DNA of 64,000 nucleotides from Iodidimonas nitroreducens (GTDB taxonomy: Bacteria; Pseudomonadota; Alphaproteobacteria; Sphingomonadales; Rhodothalassiaceae): assembly GCA_000710935.1 (NCBI GenBank), contig BAYV01000013.1:62001-126000 (forward strand), written 5' to 3'. Of this stretch, positions 29,099-47,275 are shown piece by piece; positions within the stretch are counted from its first letter, which is position 1; each line of letters starts with the position of its first letter. The translations under genes were made by a program, and so were the position numbers. The notes below the pieces were generated by a model. It saw only the letters and a program-made list of their open reading frames with translations, was not told the DNA's origin and ran no database searches.

Positions 29099-29141
29099 TA
29101 AGCTTTTTATAAGTTCAACATTTTGCAAACAGAGACTGTTC

Positions 29142-29982: not shown

Positions 29983-30672
29983 TCAGCGGCGGATGCGGCT
30001 TTTCAGGGCGGCGGCCATCAAAGAGGGCGGTGTTTGGGGGGAGAAATGCGTCAGATATGCCCCCTCGCGGCCCATCAGCATGATATTGGTCGTATGATCA
30101 ATGAGATAGCTGCTATAGGCTTCATCGGTGGTTTTGGAAAAACGCACGGCATAGGCGGTGGCCATCCGCTTGATATCCGGCACCGTGCCGGTGATGCCGG
30201 TGAAGGCGGGGTGAAAGCTTTCAAGATATTGGCCCAGCTTTTCCGGGGTATCGCGCTCGGGATCAAGGGTGACAAAGATAGGCGCGATTTGCGCCGCCAA
30301 TTCAGGGTCATCCTGTTCCAGCGCATAAAGGCTATTGGAAACCGCCAATAATGACATCGGACACACATCGGGGCAAAAGCTGTAGCCAAATACGATCAGC
30401 ATATAGCGGCCGCGAAAATCCTGCGCCGTGACGGGGGCACCATCCACCCCGATGAGGGAAAAAGCCCCCCCCACCGGCGCATCAAGATCGACCTCGCCTT
30501 CAGGATTGGTCGGGTCTTTTGTTTTCAAGGCATCGCCTTGGGCCTTTTGATCTGTTGCGCTTGGATTGGCGGAAAATAGATCTGGCATGGTTTTATAAAC
30601 AATAAAAACAGCCAGAAATGAAATCCCTGCCACCACCAAAGGCAGCAGGGTTTGTTTCCGAAACAGGCTCAC
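29983..30672 (-). CDS. ioxF: IoxF, Sco1/SenC-type copper protein
   Basis: The 229-residue protein is a membrane-anchored Sco1/SenC protein, likely a copper chaperone or thiol reductant for the iodide oxidase. One N-terminal membrane helix (about 8-26) precedes the thioredoxin-like domain. The copper ligands are complete: CPDVCP (Cys 100, Cys 104) and His 193 in IDHTTN. I chose a GTG start at 30672 because it makes a GTGA overlap with the ioxE stop, as at the ioxD-ioxE junction; a TTG at 30684 is the alternative. It is the last gene of the iox block. Confidence 0.9.
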   Translation of the reverse strand: MSLFRKQTLLPLVVAGISFLAVFIVYKTMPDLFSANPSATDQKAQGDALKTKDPTNPEGEVDLDAPVGGAFSLIGVDGAPVTAQDFRGRYMLIVFGYSFCPDVCPMSLLAVSNSLYALEQDDPELAAQIAPIFVTLDPERDTPEKLGQYLESFHPAFTGITGTVPDIKRMATAYAVRFSKTTDEAYSSYLIDHTTNIMLMGREGAYLTHFSPQTPPSLMAAALKSRIRR

Positions 30673-32486
30673 GGTACAATCCAATCCGATACAGGTTCGA
30701 CGCCTTTGCGATTTGTTGCATCGAACTTGACGATATAGGCCCCTTTTGATCCAAAGCGCTGGCCAGAACCCAAGGATAGGCGCGGATGGGGACCGGGATC
30801 AAAACCCACGCCGATATCATGTTCGATTAATTCGATGAGATAGCTGCCATAATAATCGCTGAGCAAATGGCCCATGGCAAAAGAGATGGTTTTCACCGCA
30901 TAATAAGCCTGTAATTGCATGGTCCAATCAGGGATCGGCAATTTTCGGGCCCGCAGCCAGGCGCGAATCCGATAGGCATCGGCATGATAGGCATCGGGTT
31001 TATCATAGGGATAGATGGCTCGCACATGGCCCCATTGGCCTTCGGGAAGTTGGGCTTGCATCGCCGCGATCGAGGCCGAGGGCACATAGATCATGAGATC
31101 GCCGGGGAGCGATGTTTCAGCCAAAGCTTTAGCCGCAGCTTCAGGCGCAGTGCCGGGCCACAGGATAAGGGTTGAGGAGGGATTTTTGCCCGCCACAGCC
31201 GCCTTGATGGCCTTTCTCCATGCCTTTTCTAGGGATTTTTCTGGGGCTTTTCCCGATTTCACCTTCTGGCTTTTGATTTTCTGCTCGGGAGCCCGCTTTT
31301 CCATGGCGCTGGCAAACCGCTCAGCCGGTTTCCGGCCTTCGGCATCCTGATGATAAATCTGCCGGATCGTGCCTTTTTCTGGGGCGTTCTCCAGATTCTG
31401 GCCTAAATGGTCTGCAAGCGCATCGGCTTCCAGCAGCAAGGCACGTGAGAAATAAATTGTGAAGCTATCCGGCCCGGTATTTTCCGATGGTAATTGGGTG
31501 ATGGGCAGGATGCAGGGCATTCTTTTGGCATCACAAAATGCGGCGATGGGGGCGTAATCCCCTTCAACCAAAGCACTGGCAACCAGAAATGCAGGCTGTT
31601 TTTGATAATAGCGCTCCAGTTGTTCGGGCCAGCTTTTCGGATCACCGGTCAGCCGCCAGACAGCAATATCCCAATCGCGATAGGAATCCTGGAATTCGGA
31701 TCGATAATAGGGTGAATAGCCGGGGCGGGCTTTATCGGTATGATAGGATTTTGATTTCCAGTCGGCATAGGCGGTGATCACGCCGGTAAAGGCTTCAGCG
31801 CGTTCCGGGTCCACCGGGCCGGCGACGATGGTGGCCAAATGCAATTTCTCAGGCTCTACGCCCTTGTCATAGCTGGGGTAGGTTTCTTTCAAAAAAGCAT
31901 AAAGATTGGCGACATCGGTATCGCTTAATTCATAGCGCGGCATGGCGGGGTTCAAAGCCCGGCCCACGGGATCAACCCCTTCGCGAATGGCGGCCCCCAG
32001 ATGATCAAGCTCATAAGCCGGGCGCAAGCGGCCACGGCGCGCATCATGAACAAAAAGCGGGCCTTGGGGTTCCTTGTAATATTCTTTGAAGCGTTCATTG
32101 CGCAAAGCACGATCGGCTTTGCGTTCGGTAAACAGATAGCTAGCATTGATCGGGGGCACATAAACGCCGCCCTCGCTCGATCCCATCCCGCTGGGGCGAT
32201 GACAACTGACACAGGTCATTTGCGCACCACTGATCTGGATATCTCCGCCTGTGATGCCGGAAATCACGGAGCCATCAGCACTGATCCCGTCATAATAAAG
32301 GCGCTTGCCAAGGGCGGGGTCGCCTTTCGGTGCGGAGGCGGGGCCTTGGGCATGGACGCCCGAAGCGGTGACGCCACTGAAAACAAGGGCAAGAACAAAA
32401 AAATGAAAGCGGATTTTGGGAAAGCGGAGCCGAGATAAACGAATTGGGAGACCAAACATCAACACTACTCTGACTAAGGGGATCAC
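30669..32486 (-). CDS. ioxE: IoxE, cytochrome c with periplasmic-binding-like domain
   Basis: The 605-residue exported protein begins with a signal peptide (about 28-46, ending VHAQ). A c-type cytochrome domain follows with a single haem site CVSCH (92-96) and a likely axial Met in NPAMPRYELSD. From about residue 210 to the end it resembles a type 1 periplasmic solute-binding protein: LHLATIVAGPVD at the start and SKGAYIVKFD near the end. A Lys-rich stretch (about 385-410) breaks the middle. The start is a GTG at 32486 that overlaps the ioxD stop (GTGA); an ATG at 32459 is possible. It probably carries electrons from the iodide oxidase or transfers them on, which is inference. Confidence 0.85.
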   Translation of the reverse strand: MIPLVRVVLMFGLPIRLSRLRFPKIRFHFFVLALVFSGVTASGVHAQGPASAPKGDPALGKRLYYDGISADGSVISGITGGDIQISGAQMTCVSCHRPSGMGSSEGGVYVPPINASYLFTERKADRALRNERFKEYYKEPQGPLFVHDARRGRLRPAYELDHLGAAIREGVDPVGRALNPAMPRYELSDTDVANLYAFLKETYPSYDKGVEPEKLHLATIVAGPVDPERAEAFTGVITAYADWKSKSYHTDKARPGYSPYYRSEFQDSYRDWDIAVWRLTGDPKSWPEQLERYYQKQPAFLVASALVEGDYAPIAAFCDAKRMPCILPITQLPSENTGPDSFTIYFSRALLLEADALADHLGQNLENAPEKGTIRQIYHQDAEGRKPAERFASAMEKRAPEQKIKSQKVKSGKAPEKSLEKAWRKAIKAAVAGKNPSSTLILWPGTAPEAAAKALAETSLPGDLMIYVPSASIAAMQAQLPEGQWGHVRAIYPYDKPDAYHADAYRIRAWLRARKLPIPDWTMQLQAYYAVKTISFAMGHLLSDYYGSYLIELIEHDIGVGFDPGPHPRLSLGSGQRFGSKGAYIVKFDATNRKGVEPVSDWIVP

Positions 32487-33202
32487 TGATGGGCGGCAGC
32501 TTTGTGCTGCAAAACGCTTTCAAATTCGTTCATCAGGGCAGCCTTGCTCAAAAGCCCATCCAGCCGCACCCAATCTTTCCCCGGTTCGGCCCGCAGATAG
32601 GTATAGGGCCGGTGATACATTTTATTGCCGCTTTCATAAAGGGCATCAAACGCCTTGATCGCCAAACGCACCTCGGCCAAAGAGCCGGTGAGGAAAATCC
32701 AGTTTTCCGGCGCATTATAGCGCTTTGCATAGCTCAAAAGCCGCTCTGGCGTATCATATTCGGGATCGATCGAGATGGAAATGAGGCGTGTTTCGGGATC
32801 GAGGTCCGTCATCGGGGCGATGGATTGCGCAAAACTGGCCGATAAAACCGGGCACACCGTGGCGCAGCTGGTGAAGATGAACTGCAAAGCCACCGGGCCG
32901 GGCTGGGCCAGTATCTGGGCCAGATCATGGGCTTTACCATGCTGATCCACAAGCTGTACGGATGAAACATCATAAGCGCCGATGCTCGCCTTATAATTCC
33001 GACCGGGCTTTGTGGGGCCGTTATACATGTGGAATTTCTGTTCACCATGGCCCATCACATGCTCATTCTGGCCATGCTGGCTATGATCCATCGTGCTATG
33101 ATCAGCTTGGGCGCGCGCCGGAACAGACATAGCAGTAAAACCAAGGGCCATGCAGCCAAGCGCCATGATCTTCGAAAGTGTTTTTGCCGGGGTCTGTTCC
33201 AT
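32483..33202 (-). CDS. ioxD: IoxD, Sco1/SenC-type copper chaperone
   Basis: The 239-residue periplasmic protein has a signal peptide (to about ARAQ, residue 32) and a Sco domain with intact ligands TSCATVCP (Cys 113, Cys 117) and His 197 in KMYHRPY. Between them lies a His/Met-rich stretch just after the signal (about 34-60, including STMDHSQHGQNEHVMGHGEQ), a typical copper-binding tail. AAGGGA lies 8 bases before the ATG. It follows a strong intercistronic hairpin and opens the ioxDEF sub-block. It likely loads copper into IoxA. Confidence 0.9.
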   Translation of the reverse strand: MEQTPAKTLSKIMALGCMALGFTAMSVPARAQADHSTMDHSQHGQNEHVMGHGEQKFHMYNGPTKPGRNYKASIGAYDVSSVQLVDQHGKAHDLAQILAQPGPVALQFIFTSCATVCPVLSASFAQSIAPMTDLDPETRLISISIDPEYDTPERLLSYAKRYNAPENWIFLTGSLAEVRLAIKAFDALYESGNKMYHRPYTYLRAEPGKDWVRLDGLLSKAALMNEFESVLQHKAAAHQ

Positions 33203-33232
33203 CGTTTAATCCCTTCAATGCAGAATGACATC

Positions 33233-33271
33233 CGTATAAAACGCAAAAGCTGCCGGGCCTGAGCCCGGCAG
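33233..33271 (-). terminator. Hairpin between ioxC and ioxD (attenuator-like)
   Basis: A perfect 9-bp stem, CTGCCGGGC (33250-33258) with GCCCGGCAG (33263-33271) and a four-base loop, lies 46 bp after the ioxC stop. Read on the minus strand it is followed by CTTTTGCGTTTTA, a broken U-tract. It could partly end transcription, so that ioxABC is made in excess of ioxDEF, or protect the ioxABC mRNA. Confidence 0.7.
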
Positions 33272-33316
33272 TGTGGTTACCAATTAAAACCCTTTAACGT
33301 CAGCAGCATAACCGCC

Positions 33317-35251
33317 TCAGTGAACCGACCAGATGGCAACGCCATGATGGAAAGGATCGAACTGATAATAGCGCAGACGCTGTGCAGGATCGTAGCGGAA
33401 TTCGACTTCCACTTCATGCTTGCCCAAGCCATCTTCGGTGACCTGATTGGCAAACTGGGTGAAATCGGTTTGCAGTTCCTGCTGGATGATCACGCCTTTT
33501 TGTCCGGCTGTCATGGCCTGTGCTTCGGCAACATTGGAAGCAAGACCACCCAAACCGGCCATCGTGGCGGCGTCACCCAGAATACCAGCCTGTGTGAAGC
33601 CCCCTTCAGGACGCACAGCCGGGGGAACAACCGCAGGATTGACCGTATTGGGCATCCAGTTGGTGCGCCCAAAGGTGAACCATGGGCCCTGGCCATTCAA
33701 AGGCAGGGTGTTATGGAAGGTATTTTCCCAACCCCGAAGACCTCCGAAATCGACGCTGAAATACCCATGCGGGAAATAATCACCATTATAAAGGGTGACA
33801 TTGAGTGTCGTCCCGCGGGTTGTCCATTCGTCGAAGCGACCTTGTGAGCCGGTGGTGCCGTCATGCCCGGTCAACATCCCATAGATGGTGTTGTTGACAT
33901 AGAACAAGGTGCTGTCGGCGGTGAGATCAGGCGTGACCCCACGTGGCAGTTTATTGCGGTTTTTCCAATCAAAGAACGCTTCTTCGATTTCCTTCACAAG
34001 CAGAGCCGCCGTGCTGGTTTCCGTGCGGCCATTGAAGTTGTATTCCCGCAGGGCTTTCAAGGCCAGCCACATGCGCTTGGCAGGTGCCAGATCGCCAATC
34101 ATCCCGATGGCAGCCAGCTTGGCGGCTTCGCTGGACGAAGGCGCTTCGCCAAAGACATCGATTTCCCATTGCGGAATGGATTTTCCACCCGGTGCCTTCA
34201 GGGCATTTTCAATGGCCTGAATGCGGGATGGATGGACGCGCCATCCCCAATGATAGGTCAGATTCCAAAAGCGCCCGGGGGCCATCTTGAAATCAAACTC
34301 ATAGCGTTCGCCTTCATTCATCGGAAAGAAGGAGCCATCCAGTGCCACTGAGGGCACACCTACGCCACCGCGCAGATTGGGATCATCGAAATACATCACG
34401 AAGGGGGCCCAATCTTCATGACCTCTTTTCACGACATCGACGACATAATTGATGGTCCATTCTTCATCGAGCACATTGCTGGGATCGATGGAGAAAGTAT
34501 CCGAAAGGATGAAATGCCGCCCCCAAACCTGATGAACCGTGACCGAATTGGTTTCGGGATCAACAGATTTGATCTGTTCCGGGCCTTTGTAATTGAGCAA
34601 AGGCATGCCGCTATAGACGCGATTGATCGGGTTTCCTTCCAGAATATCGAGCGCAAACTGGATATCTTCCTGATCAACACGGGTGGCGACACGCTCGCCA
34701 ATCTGGCCCGCTGCATCATCGCCGCGCGGAACTTCACTATCACCGCGACGCGGATCAGTGGGAACGCGCAAACCACCATGGAAGCGGGTTTGGGTTGTGG
34801 CCCATAATTCGCGCCAATTAGTGGCTTCCTTCAGGCGTTTGATCACCCGCGCCAGATCTTCTTCCGGACCACGATCATCAGCCAGAACGCTGACAACGGG
34901 ATCGGGATGAAGATTATAAGGGTTTTCCGGCGTTGAGTTCAGCGTATTGGGAATTTCATTCCCTGCTGAATCGAGCGCATTGCCAAAGATCGTCGGCAAC
35001 AGGTTCGATGGATTGGTGCTATCCGCTCCCAGTGTTTCTGAAGGCGGGAAAGGATGACCCGCGCCCGAAAGCGCTTCGGCCGATCCGGTTTTATAGATCG
35101 TTTTTGTGCCGTCATTGACCACTTCCATTGTGCGATCAGCCGGCAGGGGCTGGAAAGGCGCCCCATCCTGAGCGAATGCCGCGCCGGTTCCCGCCAGCAT
35201 AACTGCCGGCAAAAGAACCTTGGCCATCCGCCTGTCGAGTTTCGTTCTCAT
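33317..35251 (-). CDS. ioxC: IoxC, secreted component of the iodide-oxidising enzyme
   Basis: This 644-residue exported protein matches IoxC by position and size: in iodide-oxidising Alphaproteobacteria, IoxC co-purifies with the multicopper oxidase IoxA. I recognise no common domain. A signal peptide ends near AFAQ (residue 28); the mature protein is Trp/Tyr/Asn-rich with strand-like segments such as GHEDWAPFVMYFDDPNL and FWNLTYHWGWRVHP, and ends FDPFHHGVAIWSVH. GGAG lies 7 bases before the ATG at 35251. An open frame continues far upstream, across ioxB, but its translation is not protein-like. Its role may be structural or in substrate binding. Confidence 0.85.
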   Translation of the reverse strand: MRTKLDRRMAKVLLPAVMLAGTGAAFAQDGAPFQPLPADRTMEVVNDGTKTIYKTGSAEALSGAGHPFPPSETLGADSTNPSNLLPTIFGNALDSAGNEIPNTLNSTPENPYNLHPDPVVSVLADDRGPEEDLARVIKRLKEATNWRELWATTQTRFHGGLRVPTDPRRGDSEVPRGDDAAGQIGERVATRVDQEDIQFALDILEGNPINRVYSGMPLLNYKGPEQIKSVDPETNSVTVHQVWGRHFILSDTFSIDPSNVLDEEWTINYVVDVVKRGHEDWAPFVMYFDDPNLRGGVGVPSVALDGSFFPMNEGERYEFDFKMAPGRFWNLTYHWGWRVHPSRIQAIENALKAPGGKSIPQWEIDVFGEAPSSSEAAKLAAIGMIGDLAPAKRMWLALKALREYNFNGRTETSTAALLVKEIEEAFFDWKNRNKLPRGVTPDLTADSTLFYVNNTIYGMLTGHDGTTGSQGRFDEWTTRGTTLNVTLYNGDYFPHGYFSVDFGGLRGWENTFHNTLPLNGQGPWFTFGRTNWMPNTVNPAVVPPAVRPEGGFTQAGILGDAATMAGLGGLASNVAEAQAMTAGQKGVIIQQELQTDFTQFANQVTEDGLGKHEVEVEFRYDPAQRLRYYQFDPFHHGVAIWSVH

Positions 35252-35294
35252 TACGTCACTCCATTGATTCCGTTTGAGCCTCAAAAGCGCTGCT

Positions 35295-35954
35295 TCAAAG
35301 CGTTGCGCGGTGATTCCACGCATAGGCGCTCTTTCCCGGAAGGGAAGGACCGGCCAATTGTGGAGCAGCAGGCTTTTTGCTGGGCAGCATCCATGAGATG
35401 CGGTGAACGGCATCCTGCGTGGTGATCTTGGCGGGGAAAGTGCCCCAGATCCGTGCATTGCCGGTAGCATTGCCATAGAAAACCAGACGGCCCATGCCGA
35501 CGCTGGCACCACGATTGAAGTGGTACATGCGTTGCGCAAGCATCGCTGGTTCTTCTCCGGCAGCGCGCATGAACATCCAGCCATCCGGGGCATTGAATTC
35601 CCGGGCATGTTCGGCCAAACGCTCGACCGTATCATTGATGGGGTCCACGGTGATCGAGGTGATGAAAACATCACGCCCGACCTTGTCGCCCAATCCTTCC
35701 ACGATCTTGGCAATATGCGCCGTTTGGCTGTGCATCTTGTCATCATCGATCGAGAAGAAATTGACCATGAAAATCTTGTTTTGCATGCGATCTTCATAGA
35801 ACCGCACCGGTTCGCCGGTATGAGACACCGCACGCACATCAGGGAAGCCACAGCGGACATTGAGATCAAGCTGGTGCACCGAGGTGGGTGTCAGGCTCTC
35901 GTTCGGGCCGCATTGTGCGGCGCCGCTTAACAACTGTCGTCTTGTTGTAGACAT
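35295..35954 (-). CDS. ioxB: IoxB, Sco-like protein lacking the copper cysteines
   Basis: The 219-residue protein has the Sco/thioredoxin-like fold but not its catalytic cysteines. Where IoxD has FTSCATVC, IoxB reads FFSIDDDK (66-73), so both Cys are replaced; the third ligand position is retained as His 145 in QRMYHFN. The N-terminus MSTTRRQLLSGAAQCG looks like the start of a Tat signal, but no hydrophobic core follows, so export is doubtful by itself; it might be carried with IoxA. AAAGGA lies 11 bases before the ATG at 35954; an upstream ATG is not needed. It sits between ioxA and ioxC with gaps of 38 and 43 bp. Confidence 0.85.
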   Translation of the reverse strand: MSTTRRQLLSGAAQCGPNESLTPTSVHQLDLNVRCGFPDVRAVSHTGEPVRFYEDRMQNKIFMVNFFSIDDDKMHSQTAHIAKIVEGLGDKVGRDVFITSITVDPINDTVERLAEHAREFNAPDGWMFMRAAGEEPAMLAQRMYHFNRGASVGMGRLVFYGNATGNARIWGTFPAKITTQDAVHRISWMLPSKKPAAPQLAGPSLPGKSAYAWNHRATL

Positions 35955-35992
35955 CGAATTGTCATCCTTTTCGAAAAGTTTCGGTGAGGGGA

Positions 35993-37819
35993 TCAGTCGC
36001 CCTGACCCGGCTCCACAAGATCCCAACGCACCATCATGGCGTGATCCTCATGCACCACATTGTGGCAATGCATGATGTAAGGACCGAGGAAATCGCGCCA
36101 GCGACCGAAGAATTTCACTTCATCGCCCGGTCCGAGTTCCACCACGTCTTTCTTGGTGTCGAGGAAGCTGAAGGGCTCCACCGGCTTGCCATTGACTTCA
36201 AAAATCTGGAATTCTTCCATATGCGTATGCACAGGATGCGCCCAGCTATCGCCGGTATTGCGCCAGGTCCAGATTTCCGCACTGCCTTGCTCGATCTTGG
36301 CATCAGCACGGTTTGGATCCATCAACTCGCCATTGACGGTGAAGAGGCCACTGTCATAGTCGAAGGTCCAGATGCGTTCGCGACGCACTTCGCTGAAATC
36401 GATGGCTGGCTGACGACGCATGAAATCGGGGATCCGCGATGGATCTTCGACATCACCCGCCTGCACGCGGAACTGCATGATCATATCGCCTTCATCGAGC
36501 TGACGGCCGCTTTGACCGGCGCCATCTTCGCGCATGCCCAAACGGTTGACGATGTAGACATTGTCACCGGCATTGAAATTCGAGAAATCGATGATCACGT
36601 CCGAGCGATTGGCCACCCAAAGCTTGAGGGTTTCCGATTCGATCGGTGTTTCACGCAGATTGCCGTCGTTCGACAGGATGATCCAGTTGGTTGCCCTTTG
36701 GGCATTGGGATCGGCACTGTCTGTGGCCAGATGCAGTTCATAGAGTCGGCTTGGGCCGCCATTCAGAATACGGAAGCGATATTTGCGGCGTTTCACATCC
36801 AGATAAGGCTGGATGGTGCGGTTCACCGTCATGGTATCGCCCAGCATCCCAAAGGTTGTGTGCTGGAAGCTTGGCAGATATTCGCCTTCGATATTCTGAA
36901 TATCGGGGGAGAAGAAATCCCAGACCACCTGACCATTTTCATCGAACTGAACGTCATGGATGATGAGGGGGATGTCGTATTCCCCGCTGGGCAGCCGGAA
37001 GGCATCGGGATTGGGATCATTTTCGTTGTCGGAATCTTTCTCGTCGAACAGGAGATAGAAACCGGCATGACCCGCATACACATTGGTGGCCGTGAAATCG
37101 AGGCGATGATCATGATACCACAAGGTGGTCATGCGCTCATCGTCATTCTTACCGGATTGATCGCCCGCCGGGAAGTTTGCGTAATGATGATCCCAGAATT
37201 CGCCGGGATTGAAATAATCCTGGGGGATACCATCCGATTCCGACGCCGTATGGCCGTTATGCAGATGGATTGAAAAGCTGGGAACCGCGAAATTCACGTT
37301 ACCCGTGCCGATTTCCGGATGTTCATTGATGCGACGAACGAAAACAGGCTCGCCATATTTGGCCTTATAGGTCGGCCCCGGTGCGATATTGGTAAAGTTC
37401 GGACCGGTGAAGGTATAATGCCACGATCCCTGATTATAGGGGGGCTGTGGATGATACACCCAGCGCGATTCCTGCAAACGTTCATAATAGAACTTTTGCG
37501 GCGCAAATTTATCGAACAACTGATGCCGTTCGGGATCAGGCGCCATGCCGCCCAATATGGGATCAAGCAGATCAGATTGTGGCACGGATTGCGCAACAGG
37601 CATCCGAAACAGGGGGGCCGTAAAAGGGGTGACTTTAGGGCTTGGTCGGGACACCCATGATGGCCTGAATGTTTGAGGGAAAATAAGCCCGGTTTGTGGG
37701 AAATTACCGGGTGTGCGCTCGATAACATGCTGTTTCGGCGCACTCATTGCATACTTCGACGCGAGGCCCGCACCAGCGGCAGCGGCACCCAGCTTCAAAG
37801 CATCTCGCCTTTTGAACAT
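35993..37819 (-). CDS. ioxA: IoxA, iodide-oxidising multicopper oxidase
   Basis: IoxA oxidises iodide to I2 with oxygen as acceptor, extracellularly or at the envelope. The 608-residue protein has a Tat signal (FKRRDALKLGAAAAGAGLA) and the four multicopper-oxidase copper motifs: HLHNGH (185-190), WYHDH (234-238), HPVHTH (528-533) and HCHNVVHEDHAMM (584-596), giving type 1 ligands Cys 585, His 590 and Met 595. HLHNG instead of the common HxHG is a visible variant. GGAG lies about 9 bases before the ATG. The set of neighbours (three Sco-like proteins, cytochrome, IoxC) is what separates it from laccase or bilirubin oxidase. Confidence 0.9.
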   Translation of the reverse strand: MFKRRDALKLGAAAAGAGLASKYAMSAPKQHVIERTPGNFPQTGLIFPQTFRPSWVSRPSPKVTPFTAPLFRMPVAQSVPQSDLLDPILGGMAPDPERHQLFDKFAPQKFYYERLQESRWVYHPQPPYNQGSWHYTFTGPNFTNIAPGPTYKAKYGEPVFVRRINEHPEIGTGNVNFAVPSFSIHLHNGHTASESDGIPQDYFNPGEFWDHHYANFPAGDQSGKNDDERMTTLWYHDHRLDFTATNVYAGHAGFYLLFDEKDSDNENDPNPDAFRLPSGEYDIPLIIHDVQFDENGQVVWDFFSPDIQNIEGEYLPSFQHTTFGMLGDTMTVNRTIQPYLDVKRRKYRFRILNGGPSRLYELHLATDSADPNAQRATNWIILSNDGNLRETPIESETLKLWVANRSDVIIDFSNFNAGDNVYIVNRLGMREDGAGQSGRQLDEGDMIMQFRVQAGDVEDPSRIPDFMRRQPAIDFSEVRRERIWTFDYDSGLFTVNGELMDPNRADAKIEQGSAEIWTWRNTGDSWAHPVHTHMEEFQIFEVNGKPVEPFSFLDTKKDVVELGPGDEVKFFGRWRDFLGPYIMHCHNVVHEDHAMMVRWDLVEPGQGD

Positions 37820-38445
37820 AAGGATTTCTCCAGGTTGACGTGTCGATCCGCGATTCCCTGAAGACGGATGCCATCAGGGTTGTGAGAAAGCTTTGCATGC
37901 ATGGCGCGAAATTCACGCGAAGCATGATCTGATCAAGCGATTTGAATGCGGTGGGGAAACAGCTTTAAAGATGTGTTTGGCCGTGTATAACGAGATTTTA
38001 TCGTCATTATCTACGAAACACTTTTAAAGCGATCATTATCTATGAACTACCCGCATTAAGACTCATATTCACTCAACCAAAAAGGGCCGCACTCACTGTT
38101 GTCATTTTTCGCCTTATTGTGAATTAATGCAAGCCCATATTTCGCCACATTCTTAAAAATAGACAAATCAATGCTGTTGTATGTATTTTATACATAAGAA
38201 ACAATAATTTATATTCACATTGCATTTATGTTATTGCGTTGAAACATTTAGAAATACACCATATAGATGTTCTGAAGGTTGTGGGATGTCTGCGCTTTTC
38301 GGTAGAATCAACTGCATTTCACGAATTTGTGTCTGACGATCTATAGTTAAAAAAATTAACAAGTTTTTTAACACTCATGATGATAGGATGTGTTTAGAAT
38401 AAATCCTTAAAGTATTGTTAACACTCTGGCCGGAATGTGCGATAG
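37820..38445. other. AT-rich divergent spacer between ioxA and gspE
   Basis: This 626-bp region has no credible gene and is far more AT-rich than its surroundings, especially 37970-38430. It must hold the promoters of the ioxABCDEF and gsp operons. Visible elements are the inverted pair at 38346-38372 and a 9-bp direct repeat TTAACACTC at 38368-38376 and 38418-38426, exactly 50 bp apart. Confidence 0.7.
38346..38372. promoter_or_regulatory. Inverted repeat upstream of gspE
   Basis: GTTAAAAAA (38346-38354) and TTTTTTAAC (38364-38372) are perfect inverted halves around a 9-base spacer that itself contains ATTAAC. The element lies 74 bp before gspE. In such AT-rich DNA it could be an operator or simply composition. 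Confidence 0.35.
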
Positions 38446-40161
38446 ATGAAGACCATGGAAACGCCTTTGGCTGATCGCGATGAACGCTTGGCGGCCTTGC
38501 TGATGGATGCTGGCCGGATCGAGCATTCAACGATCGAGCGTGCGCGCCTCATTGCTCAGACTACGGGGGATTCTCTCCCTCTTGTCTTGCTGAAACTCGG
38601 CATGATGGCGGAGCGGGATCTGGCGATGGCTTTGGCCCGCTGCCATGGGCTGAAGCTTGTGGAACAAGATGCTTTCCCCGCACAGGCGATCCCGGGCTTA
38701 TCGCTGAGCACCCGCTTCTTGCGCGAAGAGCGTGTTTTGCCCCTTGCCCTCACTGATGATCGCCTTGATCTGGCGATGGCTGATCCCGGGGATGATTTTG
38801 TTCGGCAGTCATTAGCGATGATTGCCGATGTGCCGGTGGTGTTGCATGTGGGGCTGCCTACAGAAATCGAGCAGGCGATTGATCGACTCTATGGCTCGGT
38901 GCAGGCGACCGAAGATCAAATGGATCGCACTCATAATGCTGCTGAAGACGAGGGGTTTGAAACCGATATCGAACGCTTGCGCGATCTGGCCAGCGAAGCG
39001 CCGGTGGTGCGGTTGGTCAGCCGGATGATCGAGGATGCGATCGATTTGCGCGCCTCGGATATTCATCTGGAGCCTTATGAGCAGCGTTTGCGCCTTCGCT
39101 ATCGGGTCGATGGCGTTTTGCAAGACGGTGAAGCGCCACCCTTACGCCTGAAATCGGCCATCGTTTCGCGTCTGAAGATCATGGCCAAGCTCAATATCGC
39201 CGAGCGTCGCCTGCCGCAGGATGGGCGGATCAAGCTGGCGGTTCGCGGCTCTGCCATTGATCTGCGTGTCTCCACCTTGCCGTCTCTTTTTGGTGAAGGC
39301 GTGGTTTTGCGGGTGCTCAATCAGGATCAGTTGAGCCTTGAGTTCGGGGCCTTGGGCATTGGCGGCAAAACCCTTGAGCGGTTGCTGGAAGGCCTGCAGC
39401 GCCCCAATGGTATTTTTCTGGTCACCGGGCCCACGGGTTCGGGAAAAACCACCACCCTTTATGCGGCGCTTTCCCGCTTGAATGAAGCAGGCACCAAGAT
39501 CGTGACCGTGGAAGATCCGGTTGAATATCAGCTTGATGGGGTCAATCAGATACAGGTGAAGCCCGCTATTGGTTTGACCTTTGCCAATGCCTTACGCGCC
39601 ATTTTGCGCCAGGATCCCGATATCATCCTGATCGGTGAAATTCGCGATCTGGAAACAGCGCGGATTGCTGCCCAGGCGGCGCTGACCGGGCATCTGGTGT
39701 TGTCCACTTTGCACACCAATAGCGCTGCGGCTTCGGTTACCCGCTTGATGGATATGGGGCTTGAAAGCTATCTGGTCACCGCCACGCTGAATGGCGTTGT
39801 GGCCCAAAGATTGGTGCGCCGCCTGTGTGATGCGTGCAAAACGCCTTATGCCATCAGCCCGGAGCTTTATGATAAGCTGGGCTTGAAGAAACTGGGGGCG
39901 CTTTTATCTGCCACCCTTTATCAGCCCATGGGTTGTGATCACTGCCATCAAAGCGGCTATCGCGGCCGCACCAGCCTTGTGGAAATTCTGGTGATCGATG
40001 ATCATCTGCGCCGGATTATCCTGAAAGATGGGGATGCATCAGAAGTGCAGCGGGCGGCGCTGGAAGCCGGGATGGTGACCCTTTATGAGGATGGTATGAA
40101 GAAAGCCCTGGCCGGAGAAACGTCGGTCGAAGAAGTGCTCCGCACGGCGCGGGATGGGTGA
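38446..40161 (+). CDS. gspE: Type II secretion ATPase GspE
   Basis: GspE is the hexameric cytoplasmic ATPase that drives the pseudopilus of the type II secretion system. The 571-residue protein has an N-terminal GspE_N/MshEN-like domain (about 10-150), Walker A GPTGSGKT (328-335), the Asp box TVEDPVEYQ, Walker B IILIGEIRD (393-401) and the His box TGHLVLSTLHTN. The zinc-binding tetracysteine is CDAC (461-464) with CDHC (497-500). ATGs at 38446 and 38455 are both possible starts. It opens the plus-strand gsp operon and overlaps gspF if the first ATG of that frame is used. Confidence 0.95.
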   Translation: MKTMETPLADRDERLAALLMDAGRIEHSTIERARLIAQTTGDSLPLVLLKLGMMAERDLAMALARCHGLKLVEQDAFPAQAIPGLSLSTRFLREERVLPLALTDDRLDLAMADPGDDFVRQSLAMIADVPVVLHVGLPTEIEQAIDRLYGSVQATEDQMDRTHNAAEDEGFETDIERLRDLASEAPVVRLVSRMIEDAIDLRASDIHLEPYEQRLRLRYRVDGVLQDGEAPPLRLKSAIVSRLKIMAKLNIAERRLPQDGRIKLAVRGSAIDLRVSTLPSLFGEGVVLRVLNQDQLSLEFGALGIGGKTLERLLEGLQRPNGIFLVTGPTGSGKTTTLYAALSRLNEAGTKIVTVEDPVEYQLDGVNQIQVKPAIGLTFANALRAILRQDPDIILIGEIRDLETARIAAQAALTGHLVLSTLHTNSAAASVTRLMDMGLESYLVTATLNGVVAQRLVRRLCDACKTPYAISPELYDKLGLKKLGALLSATLYQPMGCDHCHQSGYRGRTSLVEILVIDDHLRRIILKDGDASEVQRAALEAGMVTLYEDGMKKALAGETSVEEVLRTARDG

Positions 40162-40165
40162 TTTT

Positions 40166-41425
40166 ATGGCTGTTTTCAGCTATCGCGCCGTGGATCAATC
40201 GGGTCGGCTTGTGGAAGGCACCTTTCATGGGGCGGATCAGGCGGCCCTGATCGCGCATTTGCGGGGGCAGGGCTTGCAGCCGGTGCAGATGACCGATCTC
40301 AGCCGAAAAGATGCCGGGATTTTTTCGGGTGGTCTTTTCTCTCGCGCCGGGCGCCTGGGCTTTTCGCTGGATCAGGCAAAGGCTAAAAAGCTGACATCTG
40401 GCGGTTTGGCGATGATGAGCCGTGAATTGGCCACCCTTCTCGATGCCGGATTGCCATTGGAGCAGGGTCTGCAGATGCTGGCACAGCAGGATGGCGGGCG
40501 CACAGTGGCAGCAAAGGTTGCGGGTGGCTTGCTGGAAAAGGTTCGGTCCGGCGCGTCTTTTGCCGATGCCTTGCAAGATCAAAGTGAGAATTTCCCCGGC
40601 CATTTCATCGGACTTGTGCGCGCGGGCGAGGCGGGCGGCACCCTTGATCGGGTTCTGCTCAAGCTGGCCGATAGTTTGGAGCGGAGCCATGCCCTGGCGC
40701 AGGATATCCGCTCGGCCCTCAATTATCCGATCCTGATTCTGGTGGCTTCGGGAGGGGCGGTTCTGGTCCTGCTTTTGGGGGTGATCCCGGAATTCGAGCC
40801 GCTGTTCAGCAGCGCGGGCAATGCCTTGCCGATGTCGGCGCGGATCGTGATGGGGGCTTCGCGGCTTTTGCAGAAATTCTGGTGGGCTTTGCCGCTGGCG
40901 ATTATCATTTTTTACATTATTATGCGGTTTATTTCGGCGGATGCATCCTTGCGGGCGCGGATTCAGGGGCTATGGCTGGATTTGCCCTTGATCGGCCCTT
41001 TGATGCGGAAAATCGAGGCGGCGCGTTTTTGTGGCACTTTGGGAACCTTGATCGAGAATGGTGTGGATGTGGTGCCGGCCTTGCAGATGAGTGGAAAAAC
41101 CTTATCCAATGCCCGTTTGGTGCGGGCTGTGGAGCAGGTGGTACCGCGCTTGCGCCGGGGTGAGGGTTTGGCCGAACCGCTGGTTGAAGCCGGGGTGCTG
41201 CCCCCCCTTGCGGCGCGCCTCATTCGGGTGGGGGAGCAAAGCGGTCGCCTTGATGTTATGCTTTTGACCACGGCGCGCATCTATGAAGGGGAAATCGGCC
41301 GCGAAACCCGCAAACTCGTTTCGCTGCTGGTGCCGATGGTGACTTTGTTTCTGGGTATTCTTGTGGCGGGGATCATCGGGTCCATCCTATCGGCGATTCT
41401 CACCTCTTATGATTTGCCTTTTTAG
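40166..41425 (+). CDS. gspF: Type II secretion inner-membrane protein GspF
   Basis: GspF is the polytopic inner-membrane platform protein. The 419-residue product starts MAVFSYRAVDQSGRLVEG, typical of GspF, and has two T2SSF domains, each with membrane segments (about 170-195, 215-240, 375-400) and signatures such as MMSRELATLLDAGLPLEQG and RFCGTLGTLIENGVDVVPAL. The ATG at 40166 is preferred because GGGTG lies 5 bases upstream; the frame opens at 40154, inside gspE. It follows gspE by 4 bp. Confidence 0.95.
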   Translation: MAVFSYRAVDQSGRLVEGTFHGADQAALIAHLRGQGLQPVQMTDLSRKDAGIFSGGLFSRAGRLGFSLDQAKAKKLTSGGLAMMSRELATLLDAGLPLEQGLQMLAQQDGGRTVAAKVAGGLLEKVRSGASFADALQDQSENFPGHFIGLVRAGEAGGTLDRVLLKLADSLERSHALAQDIRSALNYPILILVASGGAVLVLLLGVIPEFEPLFSSAGNALPMSARIVMGASRLLQKFWWALPLAIIIFYIIMRFISADASLRARIQGLWLDLPLIGPLMRKIEAARFCGTLGTLIENGVDVVPALQMSGKTLSNARLVRAVEQVVPRLRRGEGLAEPLVEAGVLPPLAARLIRVGEQSGRLDVMLLTTARIYEGEIGRETRKLVSLLVPMVTLFLGILVAGIIGSILSAILTSYDLPF

Positions 41426-41434
41426 GAGATGGGC

Positions 41435-41938
41435 ATGAAACCCCTGTTCATCACCCAAGGCGCGCAGCGGTCTTCCTGTCGGCAGGCGGTTGAGAGCGGC
41501 TTCACCCTGATGGAAATGCTGGTGGTGATGGCGGTGATGGGGATTGTGGCGGCTTTGGCCATGCCGCGTTTTCATCATGCCCTGCCGGGCCTGGATTACA
41601 CCCATGCCGTGCATAATCTGGCCTCCGCCCTGCGGCAAACCCGTGCAGCGGCTATTTCTTCGGGGCAAATGCGCAGTCTGGAACTGGATATCGATGATGC
41701 CGTCTATCGCTATCCGGGCGTTCCCAAAGCCGACATTCCGGCCGGGATCGATATCGATCTTGTGGCCGGGCGCGAAGGGTTGTCCCGTGTCGATCAACGG
41801 GCACGCTTTGATTTTTATCCCGATGGGTCGTCGGCGGGGGGGCGGATTGCTTTGGCTCAAGGGGATCGGCTGTCAATCCTTGCGATCGATTGGTTGACCG
41901 GACGCATCGAGATCAAGGATGACGCCGATGGTTTTTAA
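41435..41938 (+). CDS. gspH: Type II secretion pseudopilin GspH
   Basis: GspH is a minor pseudopilin at the tip of the T2SS pseudopilus. The 167-residue protein carries the prepilin peptidase site VESG-FTLMEMLVVMA (cleavage after Gly 22, with Glu at +5) followed by one hydrophobic helix and a beta-rich domain with FYPDGSSAGGRI near the end, the GspH hallmark. The ATG at 41435 lies 6 bases after AGGAG; the ATG at 41429 touches that site. It lies directly after gspF. Confidence 0.9.
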   Translation: MKPLFITQGAQRSSCRQAVESGFTLMEMLVVMAVMGIVAALAMPRFHHALPGLDYTHAVHNLASALRQTRAAAISSGQMRSLELDIDDAVYRYPGVPKADIPAGIDIDLVAGREGLSRVDQRARFDFYPDGSSAGGRIALAQGDRLSILAIDWLTGRIEIKDDADGF

Positions 41939-42029
41939 AGGCACGACCTATTCAAAAAAGAGTGTTCCTTTAATTTCGCACTTGCTAAAGATGCATTTCG
42001 GATTTGGGGCATGATCAGGGTTCTCGTCC

Positions 42030-43217
42030 ATGCGTTTTGATATCAATCAGCTTGGCCGCACGGCGAAACAGCTCTTCTCATGGTGGATGAGGGAACTGGC
42101 AGGCCTGTTGCCGGTGGCTTGGCTGGCACGCGCCGGTCAATGGCGGCGGACCCTTGTGTTCGAGATCGGTCAGGATCAGGTTACGGCTCGCCTTTATAAG
42201 GGCAATGGCCCTTGTGCCCTATCGGGTCAAGACCGTGGGCCAACGGACCATAAAGACGAAGGCAGCGTGATTTTCGAGGCTCCTTATGATCGCGACCGAC
42301 CTGCCGCTTTGGCTGATGCCCTTAATCACCCGAGCCTTCAGGCTTTGCCCGAAGTGGATCAGGTGCATGTGCTGATCCCCAAGGATCGGGTTTTGAGCCG
42401 CGCCATCCATCTGCCCTTGGCGGCCCGCGATAGCCTGGCGCAGGCTGTTTTATTCGATCTGGATCGCCAAACGCCTTTCCAGCCGGAGCAGGTTTATATC
42501 GGGTTGAAAAATCCGCTGATCGATCAAGCCGCCGGGCGCATTAATCTGAGCATCGATCTCATGCGCCGGGAAGATTTAAATCCTCTTCTTGATGCTTTGA
42601 AGCAGGCCGGGGTCAAGCCGGATGCTTTGCGGGCCTCGGTTTTGGGGGCGGATCTTTTGCCGGATCATCATCGCCTTGAAAAGCCCGGTTTTTCGCGTCT
42701 TAAAACGGTATCGATCCTGCTGCTGGCGGGTCTTTTGCTGCTGGCTTATTGGCTACCCCAAAATCGGCTGGACGAGGCCCGCGCGAATTTATCCCAAGAG
42801 CTTTTGGAAACCCGTAAGAAAGCTTTGGCGGTCGATGATCTGATGCGTGATCTTGAGGCTTTGCAAAATCGCCAGACCCTTCTTTTTGAGCGCAGAGCGG
42901 CAGAGCCGATGGCCCTGACCTTAATGAACAGCTTGAGCAAAGCCCTGCCCATGGATGTTTTTCTGATCGAATTTTCATATGAAAATGGGGTGGTCTCTCT
43001 CACCGGATTTGCGGATCGGGCCTCCACTGTTTTATCGGCGGTGGAAGATATCGATCTTTTTCATCAGGCGCGTTTTGTGGCCCCGGTCACCCAGGATCAG
43101 CGCATTGGCCGCGAGCGGTTCAGCCTGGCTGCGGATATTTTCATGCCCAAGGCAGGAACGCCGCAAAATGCGGCCATCAAAAACGACAGCGCAGCGCGTG
43201 TGAGGGGCGGGCGATGA
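42030..43217 (+). CDS. gspL: Type II secretion protein GspL
   Basis: GspL links the ATPase GspE to the inner-membrane platform. The 395-residue product has a cytoplasmic actin-like part (AVLFDLDRQTPFQPEQVYI near 145), one membrane helix (TVSILLLAGLLLLAYW, about 232-247) and a periplasmic coiled-coil and ferredoxin-like part (LTLMNSLSKALPMDVFLIEF). This is the PilN-type GspL variant found in Alphaproteobacteria. A 91-bp spacer without a gene separates it from gspH; its stop overlaps the gspM start (ATGA). Confidence 0.85.
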   Translation: MRFDINQLGRTAKQLFSWWMRELAGLLPVAWLARAGQWRRTLVFEIGQDQVTARLYKGNGPCALSGQDRGPTDHKDEGSVIFEAPYDRDRPAALADALNHPSLQALPEVDQVHVLIPKDRVLSRAIHLPLAARDSLAQAVLFDLDRQTPFQPEQVYIGLKNPLIDQAAGRINLSIDLMRREDLNPLLDALKQAGVKPDALRASVLGADLLPDHHRLEKPGFSRLKTVSILLLAGLLLLAYWLPQNRLDEARANLSQELLETRKKALAVDDLMRDLEALQNRQTLLFERRAAEPMALTLMNSLSKALPMDVFLIEFSYENGVVSLTGFADRASTVLSAVEDIDLFHQARFVAPVTQDQRIGRERFSLAADIFMPKAGTPQNAAIKNDSAARVRGGR

Positions 43218-43801
43218 TCAAAACTCCTTCCTTATTTGTGCGCAGGATTTCGGCTGTTGGGCTGGTTTTTCTGGCCATTGCGGTTTCCTATGAACTGGTG
43301 ATCGCCCCCATCGTGTTTGATTATCGGGCCGGTGTGGCCCAGCTTGAAAAAGATGCCGCCCTTCTCCGGCGCTATCAAAAAGTGGCGCTGTCTGTTGATG
43401 AGGTGGAAGCGCTGAGCCGCGAGGTGCGAAAAGGTCAGGCCCTAAGCGGGGTCTTTTTATCCGAAAGTACGGATTCGCTGGCCGCCGCCCGCTTGCAAAC
43501 TCTGCTTGGGCAAATAGTGACCGCAGCGGGTGGCGATGTGCGATCCCTGCAGGGCCTGCCGGTCGTGGTGCGGGATGGCTTGTCGCGCATTCCCATGCGG
43601 CTGCAATTCATGTCGGATATTCGCGGATTATCCGATCTTTTGTATCGCATCGAAAGCAGCCAGCCGATGATTTTTGTGGATCAATTGCAGATCAGAACGC
43701 GGCTGGAGCGCACATCGGTCAGGGGCGATGATCTTGAGGTGGGGCAGAATTTCCTGATTGAACTGGTGGTCTCGTCCTATCGCCTGCGGGGTGAAGAATG
43801 A
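43214..43801 (+). CDS. gspM: Type II secretion protein GspM
   Basis: GspM binds GspL in the inner membrane. The 195-residue protein has one N-terminal membrane helix (about 14-32), a coiled-coil stretch (VAQLEKDAALLRRYQKVALS) and a small ferredoxin-like domain ending VVSSYRLRGEE. Sequence similarity within this family is weak; order and topology carry the call. It overlaps gspL and the GspC/N-like gene by 4 bases each. Confidence 0.8.
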   Translation: MIKTPSLFVRRISAVGLVFLAIAVSYELVIAPIVFDYRAGVAQLEKDAALLRRYQKVALSVDEVEALSREVRKGQALSGVFLSESTDSLAAARLQTLLGQIVTAAGGDVRSLQGLPVVVRDGLSRIPMRLQFMSDIRGLSDLLYRIESSQPMIFVDQLQIRTRLERTSVRGDDLEVGQNFLIELVVSSYRLRGEE

Positions 43802-44457
43802 CCCGGCGTTTGTGGCCTCAATTGGTGCCTTTGGGTCTGGTGGCCCTGATGCTGATCATTTTGGCAGCTTTGGCCCTGCGCACGCCGCCTGATTTCACCC
43901 AAAACATGCCGGTTGATGAGGATGCATCGGCTTTCATGGGGGCAGATAACAAAACTGCCGAACCGGTGCCACCTGCAGCCCCGGGCCAAAGCACTTTTGC
44001 CGCGATCATAGAACGCAATCTGTTTGCCATCGATCGCAAGCCGCCTTTGGTGCGGACCGTGGCAAGCTCGGGCCCGGCGGCGGCAAGTACCGAGCTTGCG
44101 CTTGTCGGTGTCATCATGGGGGATGCGGGCGGATCGGCCATCGTTGAAGATAAAAAATCAAAGGATATGTCGATCATCGGGCAGGGCGAAAGCTATAGGG
44201 GATGGGAATTGCTGGCGGTCAGCCAATGGGGGGCAAGCTTTATCCGCAATGGCGAGCGTCTCTCCTTGAGCCTGCAATTTGCCCCGGGTGCGGAGGGGGT
44301 GGGGTCTGATCCCTATCAATTGGGGATGCCCGCGCATCTGGTAAAGCCCCGCTCGGTGATTACCCCGCGCCGGGGGGATGCGAATGGCAATCCCGTTCCG
44401 GCTTCGCGTCAAAACAAAGATCCCGATCGCCTTGATCGCCGCGGTTCAGGCGGATGA
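43798..44457 (+). CDS. Type II secretion GspC/GspN-like protein
   Basis: The 219-residue protein has one N-terminal membrane helix (about 9-28) and a periplasmic homology-region domain (about 65-160) with ERNLFAIDRKP, LALVGVIMG and SIIGQGESYRGWELL, the pattern of GspC HR domains that contact the GspD secretin. There is no PDZ domain; a basic, polar tail ends the protein. In Alphaproteobacteria such short forms are annotated as GspC or GspN. It overlaps gspM; gspD starts 13 bp after its stop. Confidence 0.82.
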   Translation: MTRRLWPQLVPLGLVALMLIILAALALRTPPDFTQNMPVDEDASAFMGADNKTAEPVPPAAPGQSTFAAIIERNLFAIDRKPPLVRTVASSGPAAASTELALVGVIMGDAGGSAIVEDKKSKDMSIIGQGESYRGWELLAVSQWGASFIRNGERLSLSLQFAPGAEGVGSDPYQLGMPAHLVKPRSVITPRRGDANGNPVPASRQNKDPDRLDRRGSGG

Positions 44458-44470
44458 GCCCACAACAAAA

Positions 44471-46858
44471 ATGAGACATAACATCGTGTGTACAGCAAGC
44501 ATTGAACGATCCTATCGCAGCCCCGCACGGGCCTTTCATCGGCTTGTGCCTTTTTGTCTGCTGATTTTGTTGGCGGCCTGCGGACAGGATCTGGTGCGGG
44601 GTTCGCATAGCAATGATCGGGCCTCTCCGCCGCCGGGTTTGTTTGAGGAAAGCGAGCAGCAGCGCAGCACGCGGGAGGCCTATGAAACCACCCGGATTGA
44701 TAGCAGCGATCCTCAAAGAGACCCGAATTCATTGCCCCCAACCGAGGCCGAAATCTATCGCGGCAGTGGCCAATTTACCAATGATGCTCAAAACGACAGA
44801 GGGCAGCCCGCCAAAGACGCGGGCTTTGCCGAGGTGCGGGAGCGCGAAGGCACCTATAGCCTCAATTTTGCCAATGCCGACATTCGCAAGGTTGTGGATG
44901 CCGTTCTGGGGGAAGCCTTGTCTTTGCCCTATATGATTGATAGTGCCGTTTCAGGCACGATCACCGCCCGCAGCGCCCGCGCCTTGCCCGCTGAACAGGT
45001 GATCCCGGCTTTGGAAGATATTCTGGCCATCAATCGCGTGGCGCTGGTGGAACGTTCGGGGGTTTATCATGTGGTGCCCATCGAGGCGACCACCGGCAAT
45101 GCCCCCCTTCTGAGCGGACGCGAAAGCGTGCGCGATGGTTTTGGTATTCATATCATTCCTTTGCAATATGTCTCTGCCGATGAAATGCAGGTGAGTCTTG
45201 AGCCCTTTTTGGCTCCGGGGCGAGGCTTGCAGGCCGATAATGCCCGCAATCTGTTGTTGTTTCGCGGGCCTTCGGTTGAAGCCAATGATATTGTCGCCCT
45301 GGTTGAAACCTTTGATGTGAACTGGCTTCAGGGCATGTCTTTTGCCATCCTGCCTTTGCAACATGCCGATGTGGGGGATGTGATCAGCGAGATGGAGGCG
45401 ATCTTTGCCAAGGGTAGCGAAGAACAGCCCGGACCAACCGATGGGGTGATCCGTCTCTTGCCGATTGAACGGATGAATGCCGTTCTGGCGATCAGCCGTC
45501 AGGCGCAATATCTGGTCAGCGCCAAGCAATGGGCGGAACGCCTTGATCGTGGTGGCGGCACGGATGGCCAGCGGATGCTTTATGTGTATCATTTGAAAAA
45601 CGCTCGGGCATCTGAAATTGGCGAGGTTCTGGGCGAATTATTCGATGTCCGCACCGTGGGCGAGGGGGCGGGCCAAAGCGGCGGCGGCCTGGCTCCGGGT
45701 CGGCAGTCTGGCGGCCTTTCGGGTACCAGCGGTTCGGGCAATACGGCCTCATCAGATGATGGGTCGGGGGCTGCTGGCTCTGGCCGGGGTGGGGTGTCTG
45801 GCAATAATGGTGGGGCTTTATCGGCAGCAGCCCGGACATCCACGGGCGGTGGGGGTCGCGCATCCGGCGCGGGTGGCAATAGCGGTTCAGCCTTTTCTTC
45901 GGAAAATGGCGATGGCCCACGCCTGATCGCTGATGATCGCAATGATGCCATGCTGATTTTGGCAACGGCGCAGGAATTTCGCATGATCGAATCCACGATC
46001 AAGCGTTTGGATGTCTCTCCCTTGCAGGTTTTGATCGAGGCAACGATTGCCGAGGTTACCCTGAACGATGCTTTGAATTTTGGCGTACGCTGGTTTTTCG
46101 ATGCCGGGAATGAAAATACCCAGAATGTGAGTTTTTCAGATGTATCAAACGGCGCGGTGGCCCCTACATTTCCCGGATTTTCCTATTTCTTTGAAAGCAA
46201 TAGCGCCCGAGCGGCGCTCAATGCCTTAAGCGAAATCACCGATGTGACCGTGGTATCATCGCCGCAATTGATGGTTCTGGATAATAAAACGGCCCGGTTG
46301 CAGGTGGGGGATCAGGTGCCCGTGCCGGTGCAGCAATCGGTTTCGACCCAGGATCCCGATGCCCCTATCGTCAATTCCATTCAGTTTCAGGATACGGGTG
46401 TCATTCTTGAGGTCACCCCCCATGTGAATGCCAGCGGGCTGGTGGTTCTGGATGTTTTGCAAGAGGTATCGGATGTGGTGCCCACAACATCTTCGGGGAT
46501 CGATGCCCCCACCATTCAGCAACGCACGATCAGTTCATCGGTGGCGGTGCAAACCGGGGAAACCATTGCATTGGGTGGCCTGATCCGGGATCGTTCCACC
46601 AGCAATGATACCGGTGTGCCGATCCTGATGAATATTCCGTTTTTTGGTAATTTGTTCAAAAGTAAAACCTTGGGCAATGAACGCACGGAATTGCTGGTGA
46701 TGCTGACCCCGCGGGTGGTGCGCGATCAGGCCGAAGCTCGTGAGGTGACCCAGGAACTGCGCAGGCGGATGAAGGGGCTGGAACGGCTGAAAGAGAATTT
46801 TGGCCTGCCCAAAAGCGAGCCTGACGACATGAAAAGCGAGCAAGCCGGGCCCAACTGA
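44471..46858 (+). CDS. gspD: Type II secretion secretin GspD, lipoprotein form
   Basis: GspD forms the outer-membrane channel. From the ATG at 44471 the protein has 795 residues, with a signal peptide and lipobox LLAAC (Cys about 36), so it may be self-piloting. N0-N3 domains follow (NFADADIRKVVDAVLGEAL-like strand pattern, FGIHIIPLQYVSADEMQVSLEPFL, VYHLKNARASEIGEVL). A Gly/Ser-rich insert (about 395-475) splits the N3 domain. The secretin core has VPVPVQQSVS, GVILEVTPHVN, GETIALGGLIRD and GVPILMNIPFFGNLF with TELLVMLTPRVV. The frame opens at 44378, inside the upstream gene, and the ribosome site at 44471 is weak. Confidence 0.94.
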   Translation: MRHNIVCTASIERSYRSPARAFHRLVPFCLLILLAACGQDLVRGSHSNDRASPPPGLFEESEQQRSTREAYETTRIDSSDPQRDPNSLPPTEAEIYRGSGQFTNDAQNDRGQPAKDAGFAEVREREGTYSLNFANADIRKVVDAVLGEALSLPYMIDSAVSGTITARSARALPAEQVIPALEDILAINRVALVERSGVYHVVPIEATTGNAPLLSGRESVRDGFGIHIIPLQYVSADEMQVSLEPFLAPGRGLQADNARNLLLFRGPSVEANDIVALVETFDVNWLQGMSFAILPLQHADVGDVISEMEAIFAKGSEEQPGPTDGVIRLLPIERMNAVLAISRQAQYLVSAKQWAERLDRGGGTDGQRMLYVYHLKNARASEIGEVLGELFDVRTVGEGAGQSGGGLAPGRQSGGLSGTSGSGNTASSDDGSGAAGSGRGGVSGNNGGALSAAARTSTGGGGRASGAGGNSGSAFSSENGDGPRLIADDRNDAMLILATAQEFRMIESTIKRLDVSPLQVLIEATIAEVTLNDALNFGVRWFFDAGNENTQNVSFSDVSNGAVAPTFPGFSYFFESNSARAALNALSEITDVTVVSSPQLMVLDNKTARLQVGDQVPVPVQQSVSTQDPDAPIVNSIQFQDTGVILEVTPHVNASGLVVLDVLQEVSDVVPTTSSGIDAPTIQQRTISSSVAVQTGETIALGGLIRDRSTSNDTGVPILMNIPFFGNLFKSKTLGNERTELLVMLTPRVVRDQAEAREVTQELRRRMKGLERLKENFGLPKSEPDDMKSEQAGPN

Positions 46859-47275
46859 ATGCAGCTTTTTGCGGCCAGAAGCAGAATGCACACATCCTCT
46901 AAGGGCTTCACCCTGATCGAGGTGTTGGTAGCCTTTACCATAGCCTCGATCATGCTTGTGGCTTTGCTTCAGGGCATGGGGCGGGGATTGCGCAGCATTG
47001 ATCGGGCCGATGATCGGCAAATATTGGTGAATGCCGCGCAAAACCAGATGGCCCGCCTGGGCCGCCAGATTGAACTGCGCCCGGGCATAGAAAGCGGGGA
47101 GGGCGATGGCTATCGCTGGCGGGTGTCGATATCTGATCCGCCCCCTGATCTGGCATCGGATCAGATTGCCGGTGGGCAGCTTCGCCTGCTGATGATCGAG
47201 ATTAGCGTGAGCGATGGATCGGGGGCTGAATTTCATCTGCAAACCATGCGTTTGGTTGAAAGCGAGGTGCCATGA
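46859..47275 (+). CDS. gspI: Type II secretion pseudopilin GspI
   Basis: GspI is a minor pseudopilin that nucleates the tip with GspJ and GspK. The 138-residue protein has the prepilin site SSKG-FTLIEVLVAFTIAS (Gly 16, Glu at +5). The following helix (IMLVALLQGMGRGLRS) and the short beta domain with GYRWRVSISDPP match GspI. The ATG at 46859 directly follows the gspD stop; a second ATG at 46886 would shorten the leader. It overlaps gspJ by 4 bases. Confidence 0.9.
   Translation: MQLFAARSRMHTSSKGFTLIEVLVAFTIASIMLVALLQGMGRGLRSIDRADDRQILVNAAQNQMARLGRQIELRPGIESGEGDGYRWRVSISDPPPDLASDQIAGGQLRLLMIEISVSDGSGAEFHLQTMRLVESEVP

Follow-up and report, generated by a model that had tools for sequence, protein, structure and literature searches.

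Does the run of six genes on the minus strand of this Iodidimonas nitroreducens contig encode the iodide-oxidizing enzyme and its assembly factors, and how could their products work together? In the window, meaning the whole 64,000-nucleotide stretch that was analyzed, six consecutive open reading frames (ORFs) with zero internal stops occupy positions 29983-37819, all on the minus strand and transcribed in the order ioxA, ioxB, ioxC, ioxD, ioxE, ioxF, with overlaps of a few bases between IoxD and IoxE and between IoxE and IoxF (Table 1). A preliminary description had claimed a six-gene iox cluster here, and its ORFs, order, strand, and coordinates all held. Its further claim, that order and content match the iox cluster of iodide-oxidizing Alphaproteobacteria, was borne out in Iodidimonas muriae and in two genomes of the sister genus (G387 and G388), where the same six genes follow one another in the same order. 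Chance is excluded because all six proteins recur with their order unchanged in I. muriae and the two sister-genus genomes. We also considered that a generic laccase operon had been over-read in the preliminary description, and rejected this, as IoxC and the entire gene order recur.

Table 1. Features of the iox locus and its surroundings (window coordinates)
Feature	Position	Strand	Description
ioxF	29983..30684	-	Sco protein, 233 aa, CPDVC, N-terminal hydrophobic anchor
ioxE	30669..32486	-	Cytochrome c (CVSCH) fused to a periplasmic-binding-protein-like domain, 605 aa
ioxD	32483..33202	-	Sco protein, 239 aa, CATVC, His-rich N-terminal stretch
GC-rich hairpin with T-rich tail	33250..33271	-	Just behind ioxC, dividing ABC from DEF
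ioxC	33317..35251	-	Exported second subunit, 644 aa, 71.1 kDa, no known domain
ioxB	35295..35954	-	Sco-fold protein, 219 aa, without CxxxC
ioxA	35993..37819	-	Tat-type multicopper oxidase, 608 aa, iodide-oxidizing subunit
Divergent intergenic region ioxA-gspE	37820..38445		AT-rich
Type II secretion genes gspE, F, pseudopilin, L, M, D, K	38446..48899		Candidate export route

This is the iox cluster, complete and very probably in its reference copy itself. The genome comprises 3,083,831 bp in 108 contigs and carries pufLM and narG; for Iodidimonas Q-1, the draft genome paper likewise describes nar genes and a cluster for photosynthesis (PMC4082002), and both were reported absent from the other described Iodidimonas (PMC9415286; PMC10556733). 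From these features we infer that the source genome is that of Q-1. I. muriae drops out as the source, since its IoxC shares 79% identity with the one in the window. Strain Q-1 oxidizes iodide, IoxA and IoxC are both present in the enzyme purified from it, and secreted IoxA with IoxC has been described to oxidize iodide using O2 (PMC9415286). The published iox clusters of Iodidimonas run from A to F and are flanked by gsp genes (PMC9415286). Compared with the iox genes and IOX of Q-1 (Suzuki 2012; Ehara 2014), as far as the review PMC9415286 presents them, the window has the same six genes, order, orientation, and gsp flank, an IoxC that is likewise 71 kDa, and no essential difference other than an IoxA ORF longer than 62 kDa implies. 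The locus as a whole is almost certainly best explained as the published ioxABCDEF of Iodidimonas Q-1, together with the mechanism of working, assembly, and export that we propose below. Both the observation and its interpretation were correct, yet already known, so that the finding as originally given adds little; what the present comparison contributes is a core of ioxA, ioxB, and ioxC, an IoxB without copper site, a hairpin behind ioxC, and an ioxABC locus in an ammonia oxidizer.

The N-terminus of IoxA, MFKRRDALKLG, holds a twin-arginine motif, and the four copper motifs lie at residues 185 (HLH), 236 (HDH), 531 (HTH), and 584 (HCHNVVHEDHAMM), with a Pfam match to Cu-oxidase_2 (E 4e-15). 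The full ORF computes to 69.6 kDa and a start at Met73 to 61.7 kDa, and the published IoxA mass of 62 kDa (review PMC9415286) fits the Met73 start better than the full ORF. Nonetheless, the longer ORF is probably correct, since relatives share the full N-terminus including the twin-arginine motif. IoxC, encoded two genes after ioxA, has a computed mass equal to the published value, and the possibility raised in the preliminary description that it would have no match to known IoxC did not materialize. Searches with the single sequence and with a profile gave zero matches in Pfam, NCBIfam, and PDB. Conserved histidines are found in a HH...H pattern at the C-terminus and in a YHWGWR stretch, mostly retained in the distant clusters of genomes G719 and G476, and as a guess they could bind the zinc that purified IOX is reported to contain. 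An AlphaFold model of IoxC from a two-sequence alignment was unusable (mean pLDDT 30), as was that of IoxE (mean pLDDT 38).

Three members of the SCO1/SenC family are present in the cluster, namely IoxB, IoxD, and IoxF, whose matches to SCO1-SenC in Pfam have E-values of 6e-6, 1.5e-17, and 3e-44, respectively. IoxE has a cytochrome c domain by both Pfam and its CVSCH motif, and its second half was recognized as binding-protein-like through the G387 homologue, which scores 34.2 bits against Peripla_BP_6, where the Pfam cut-off is 31.7 bits. These results agree with the earlier account of a Tat-exported multicopper oxidase with all four copper motifs, a large secreted third protein, a Sco protein (IoxD), a cytochrome-binding-protein chimera (IoxE), and a complete Sco protein (IoxF). 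For IoxB, which had been called a Cys-less Sco protein, membership of the Sco family and the missing CxxxC stood, and the word Cys-less did not, as two cysteines are present outside the motif.

IoxC was found in five of seven genomes of the family (Q-1, I. muriae, G386, G387, and G388). The identities between I. muriae (NZ_BMOV01000001) and Q-1 fall from 93% for IoxA, 89% for IoxB, and 79% for IoxC to 60% for IoxD, 59% for IoxE, and 65% for IoxF; in both, the gsp genes stand divergent to the six iox genes. Two different ioxC genes occur in the genome G386, probably that of I. gelatinilytica; they share 70% and 59% identity with the Q-1 gene and lie in loci on two contig ends (L014, C12:1-3391, and L020, C1:1-12000), one of them upstream of ioxA. 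This suggests an extra ioxC in tandem, although the assembly breaks between the two copies, and the duplication may itself have broken the assembly. An even draw of 385 genomes from the class contained IoxC in the source genome only, although Roseovarius, where the literature reports IoxC, was apparently not in that draw. In a search toward Roseovarius by way of plasmid-borne photosynthesis genes of Rhodobacterales, eight candidate genomes all lacked a pufQ of that kind. A draw of 398 genomes from the phylum contained it in two further genomes, and a draw of 399 genomes from the order of one of those two returned the same two again, so that in the draws made IoxC is rare outside the family.

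The distant clusters differ in what follows ioxC. G719 has ioxA-B-C-D-E with no adjacent ioxF, and in G476 (L045 5428-14385) genes of the RND metal-efflux type come after ioxA, ioxB, and ioxC, while ioxD, ioxE, and ioxF are absent from the 18 kb read around them. Judged by gene content, the comparison indicates that the core of the cluster is ioxA-ioxB-ioxC and that D, E, and F make up a second module, which is missing or incomplete beside the core in distant relatives.

More distant relatives of IoxA, with 30-40% identity, are encoded beside a Sco gene on plasmids of Skermanella, Limimaricola, Fuscovulum, Comamonadaceae, and Paraburkholderia. These pairs resemble IoxA-IoxB in that the oxidase gene is followed by the Sco gene, either directly or after one small gene. 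Their Sco proteins retain CxxxC, unlike IoxB, and four of the five have a cytochrome c motif. IoxC had no match in the collection of plasmid records. The small gene, found in Paraburkholderia and Comamonadaceae (L052 5034-5519, L048 5637-6122), separates the genes for the IoxA-like oxidase and the Sco-cytochrome c protein; its product, a hypothetical protein of 161 aa, may be a further partner in the sister system. On the Fuscovulum plasmid (L047 1768-6918), secretion genes of the GspE, PilN, and PilO types directly adjoin the distant IoxA-like oxidase and its Sco-cytochrome c protein.

An iodide oxidase is not the only way to read IoxA. The enzyme could be a general extracellular laccase or bilirubin-oxidase-like protein that oxidizes iodide by accident and has a phenol or a metal as its natural substrate. 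Among proteins of solved structure, bilirubin oxidase (2xll, E 3.5e-51) and CotA (1gsk, E 1e-44) come closest to it in sequence, in a PDB sequence library that contains no IoxA relatives; both are, like IoxA, multicopper oxidases across most of their length, and neither is known to have an IoxC, an IoxB, or an iox-type neighborhood. Purified IOX also oxidizes phenols and ABTS (PMC9415286). However, in a tree of 16 oxidases, which included E. coli CueO as well as Priestia, Leuconostoc, Streptomyces, and archaeal enzymes and did not include CotA or bilirubin oxidase, the IoxC-linked IoxA proteins formed one clade (support 98/97) that joined the oxidase-Sco pairs at 100/99, apart from CueO and from one oxidase each of Leuconostoc and Priestia, and IoxA has been reported to be phylogenetically distinct from CotA (PMC9415286). 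The preliminary description had named a position of IoxA in a laccase or bilirubin-oxidase clade as evidence that would speak against it; the nearest structures touch on that point, but in the tree of 16 oxidases the IoxC-linked IoxA proteins have a clade of their own, and we consider an accidental activity of a general oxidase improbable. Even less credible, in our view, is that IoxB is a decaying, functionless Sco copy and that IoxD, IoxE, and IoxF are the only assembly factors. In none of the six clusters for which a full-length IoxB was read does this protein have CxxxC, the copper site of a classical copper-delivering Sco protein; IoxD and IoxF have the motif. In Iodidimonadaceae, moreover, the N-terminus of IoxB retains the twin arginine and is missing the hydrophobic stretch; perhaps the protein is still exported, carried along with IoxA. 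Against decay, each of these six clusters retains IoxB at its place between ioxA and ioxC, and its identity between Q-1 and I. muriae is above that of IoxC, IoxD, IoxE, and IoxF. In G719 and G476, its N-terminus is full and Tat-like.

The question of how an iodide-oxidizing IoxA-IoxC enzyme leaves the cell leads to the type II secretion genes, which start 626 bases from ioxA in the divergent direction. Export of IOX by the gsp system was raised as an idea and left open in a review (PMC9415286). I. muriae, G387, and G388 all share the divergent gsp-ioxA layout, which thus occurs in both Iodidimonadaceae genera, while other flanks change; within the region between ioxA and gspE, conservation with I. 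muriae is limited to the last ~50 bases before ioxA. This conserved arrangement, along with the GspE gene that neighbors the oxidase and Sco genes on the Fuscovulum plasmid, supports export of IOX by the gsp system, and IOX likely passes the outer membrane through the adjacent type II secretion system. It is unproven, because the genome has four secretins and there are no gsp genes near the G719 and G476 clusters. The same two observations would fit type II genes that are unrelated neighbors of ioxA, with IOX leaving by another route, an account to which we give real weight without preferring it, as it does not readily explain a layout retained in two genera or the Fuscovulum gene order.

The stem of the hairpin behind ioxC is found at the same place in I. 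muriae, behind both copies in G386, and in G387 and G388, that is, in every Iodidimonadaceae copy. At one position it varies between C-G, T-G, and T-A forms, all of which preserve pairing. It occurs once in the window, and in the other loci compared only behind ioxC; in G719, a hairpin after ioxC was not clear. The simplest reading is a partial terminator, which would make the ABC message more abundant than the DEF message. Promoter-like matches in the region were at chance level only.

Taken together, we propose the following mechanism. IoxA would fold with its copper and exit via Tat, and IoxC would exit via Sec. In the complex of the two, active outside the cell as published for Q-1, the type 1 copper of IoxA would take electrons from iodide and O2 would be reduced to water, with I2 as the product. 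Judging from their domains, IoxD and IoxF, as Sco proteins with a copper-binding CxxxC, may supply or reduce periplasmic copper, and IoxE, with its cytochrome c and binding-protein parts, may handle electrons or a ligand for the copper step. IoxB, having the Sco fold minus the copper site, could be an assembly partner specific to IoxA-IoxC. The type II secretion system would then carry IOX across the outer membrane, and the hairpin after ioxC would provide more of the enzyme subunits (ABC) than of the assembly factors (DEF). The roles of IoxC and IoxE are still called unclear in the literature, and the comparison sharpens such parts; the three-gene core, the IoxB without copper site, and the hairpin each offer a simple mutant test.

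The ABC core also bears on iodide oxidation in other bacteria. Three amoA copies are present in G476, and it is therefore most likely an ammonia oxidizer. A 2025 paper posed as open questions whether the operon is present in its entirety in ammonia oxidizers that carry homologues of ioxA and ioxC, and whether this accounts for nitrification-linked marine iodide oxidation (PMC12335899). The G476 locus speaks to this, as the neighborhood there holds A, B, and C. As a joint proposal, tentative and rather doubtful in its entirety, IoxB lost its copper site in the IoxC lineage and became a dedicated partner of IoxA-IoxC, ioxABC alone is enough to oxidize iodide, and ammonia oxidizers that carry ioxABC oxidize iodide by it, independently of ammonia oxidation.

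The surroundings at the other end of the cluster differ between the two Iodidimonas species. Directly downstream of ioxF in the window (25703-29963) are nucleoside-salvage genes with a GntR-type regulator, among them deoC-like, phosphopentomutase-like, and purine nucleoside phosphorylase genes. Whereas in Q-1 the nucleoside phosphorylase follows ioxF directly, I. muriae has a phosphate-transporter-like set in between (L005 15298-18643), consisting of a binding protein, two permeases, and an ATPase, which is absent from that place in the window.
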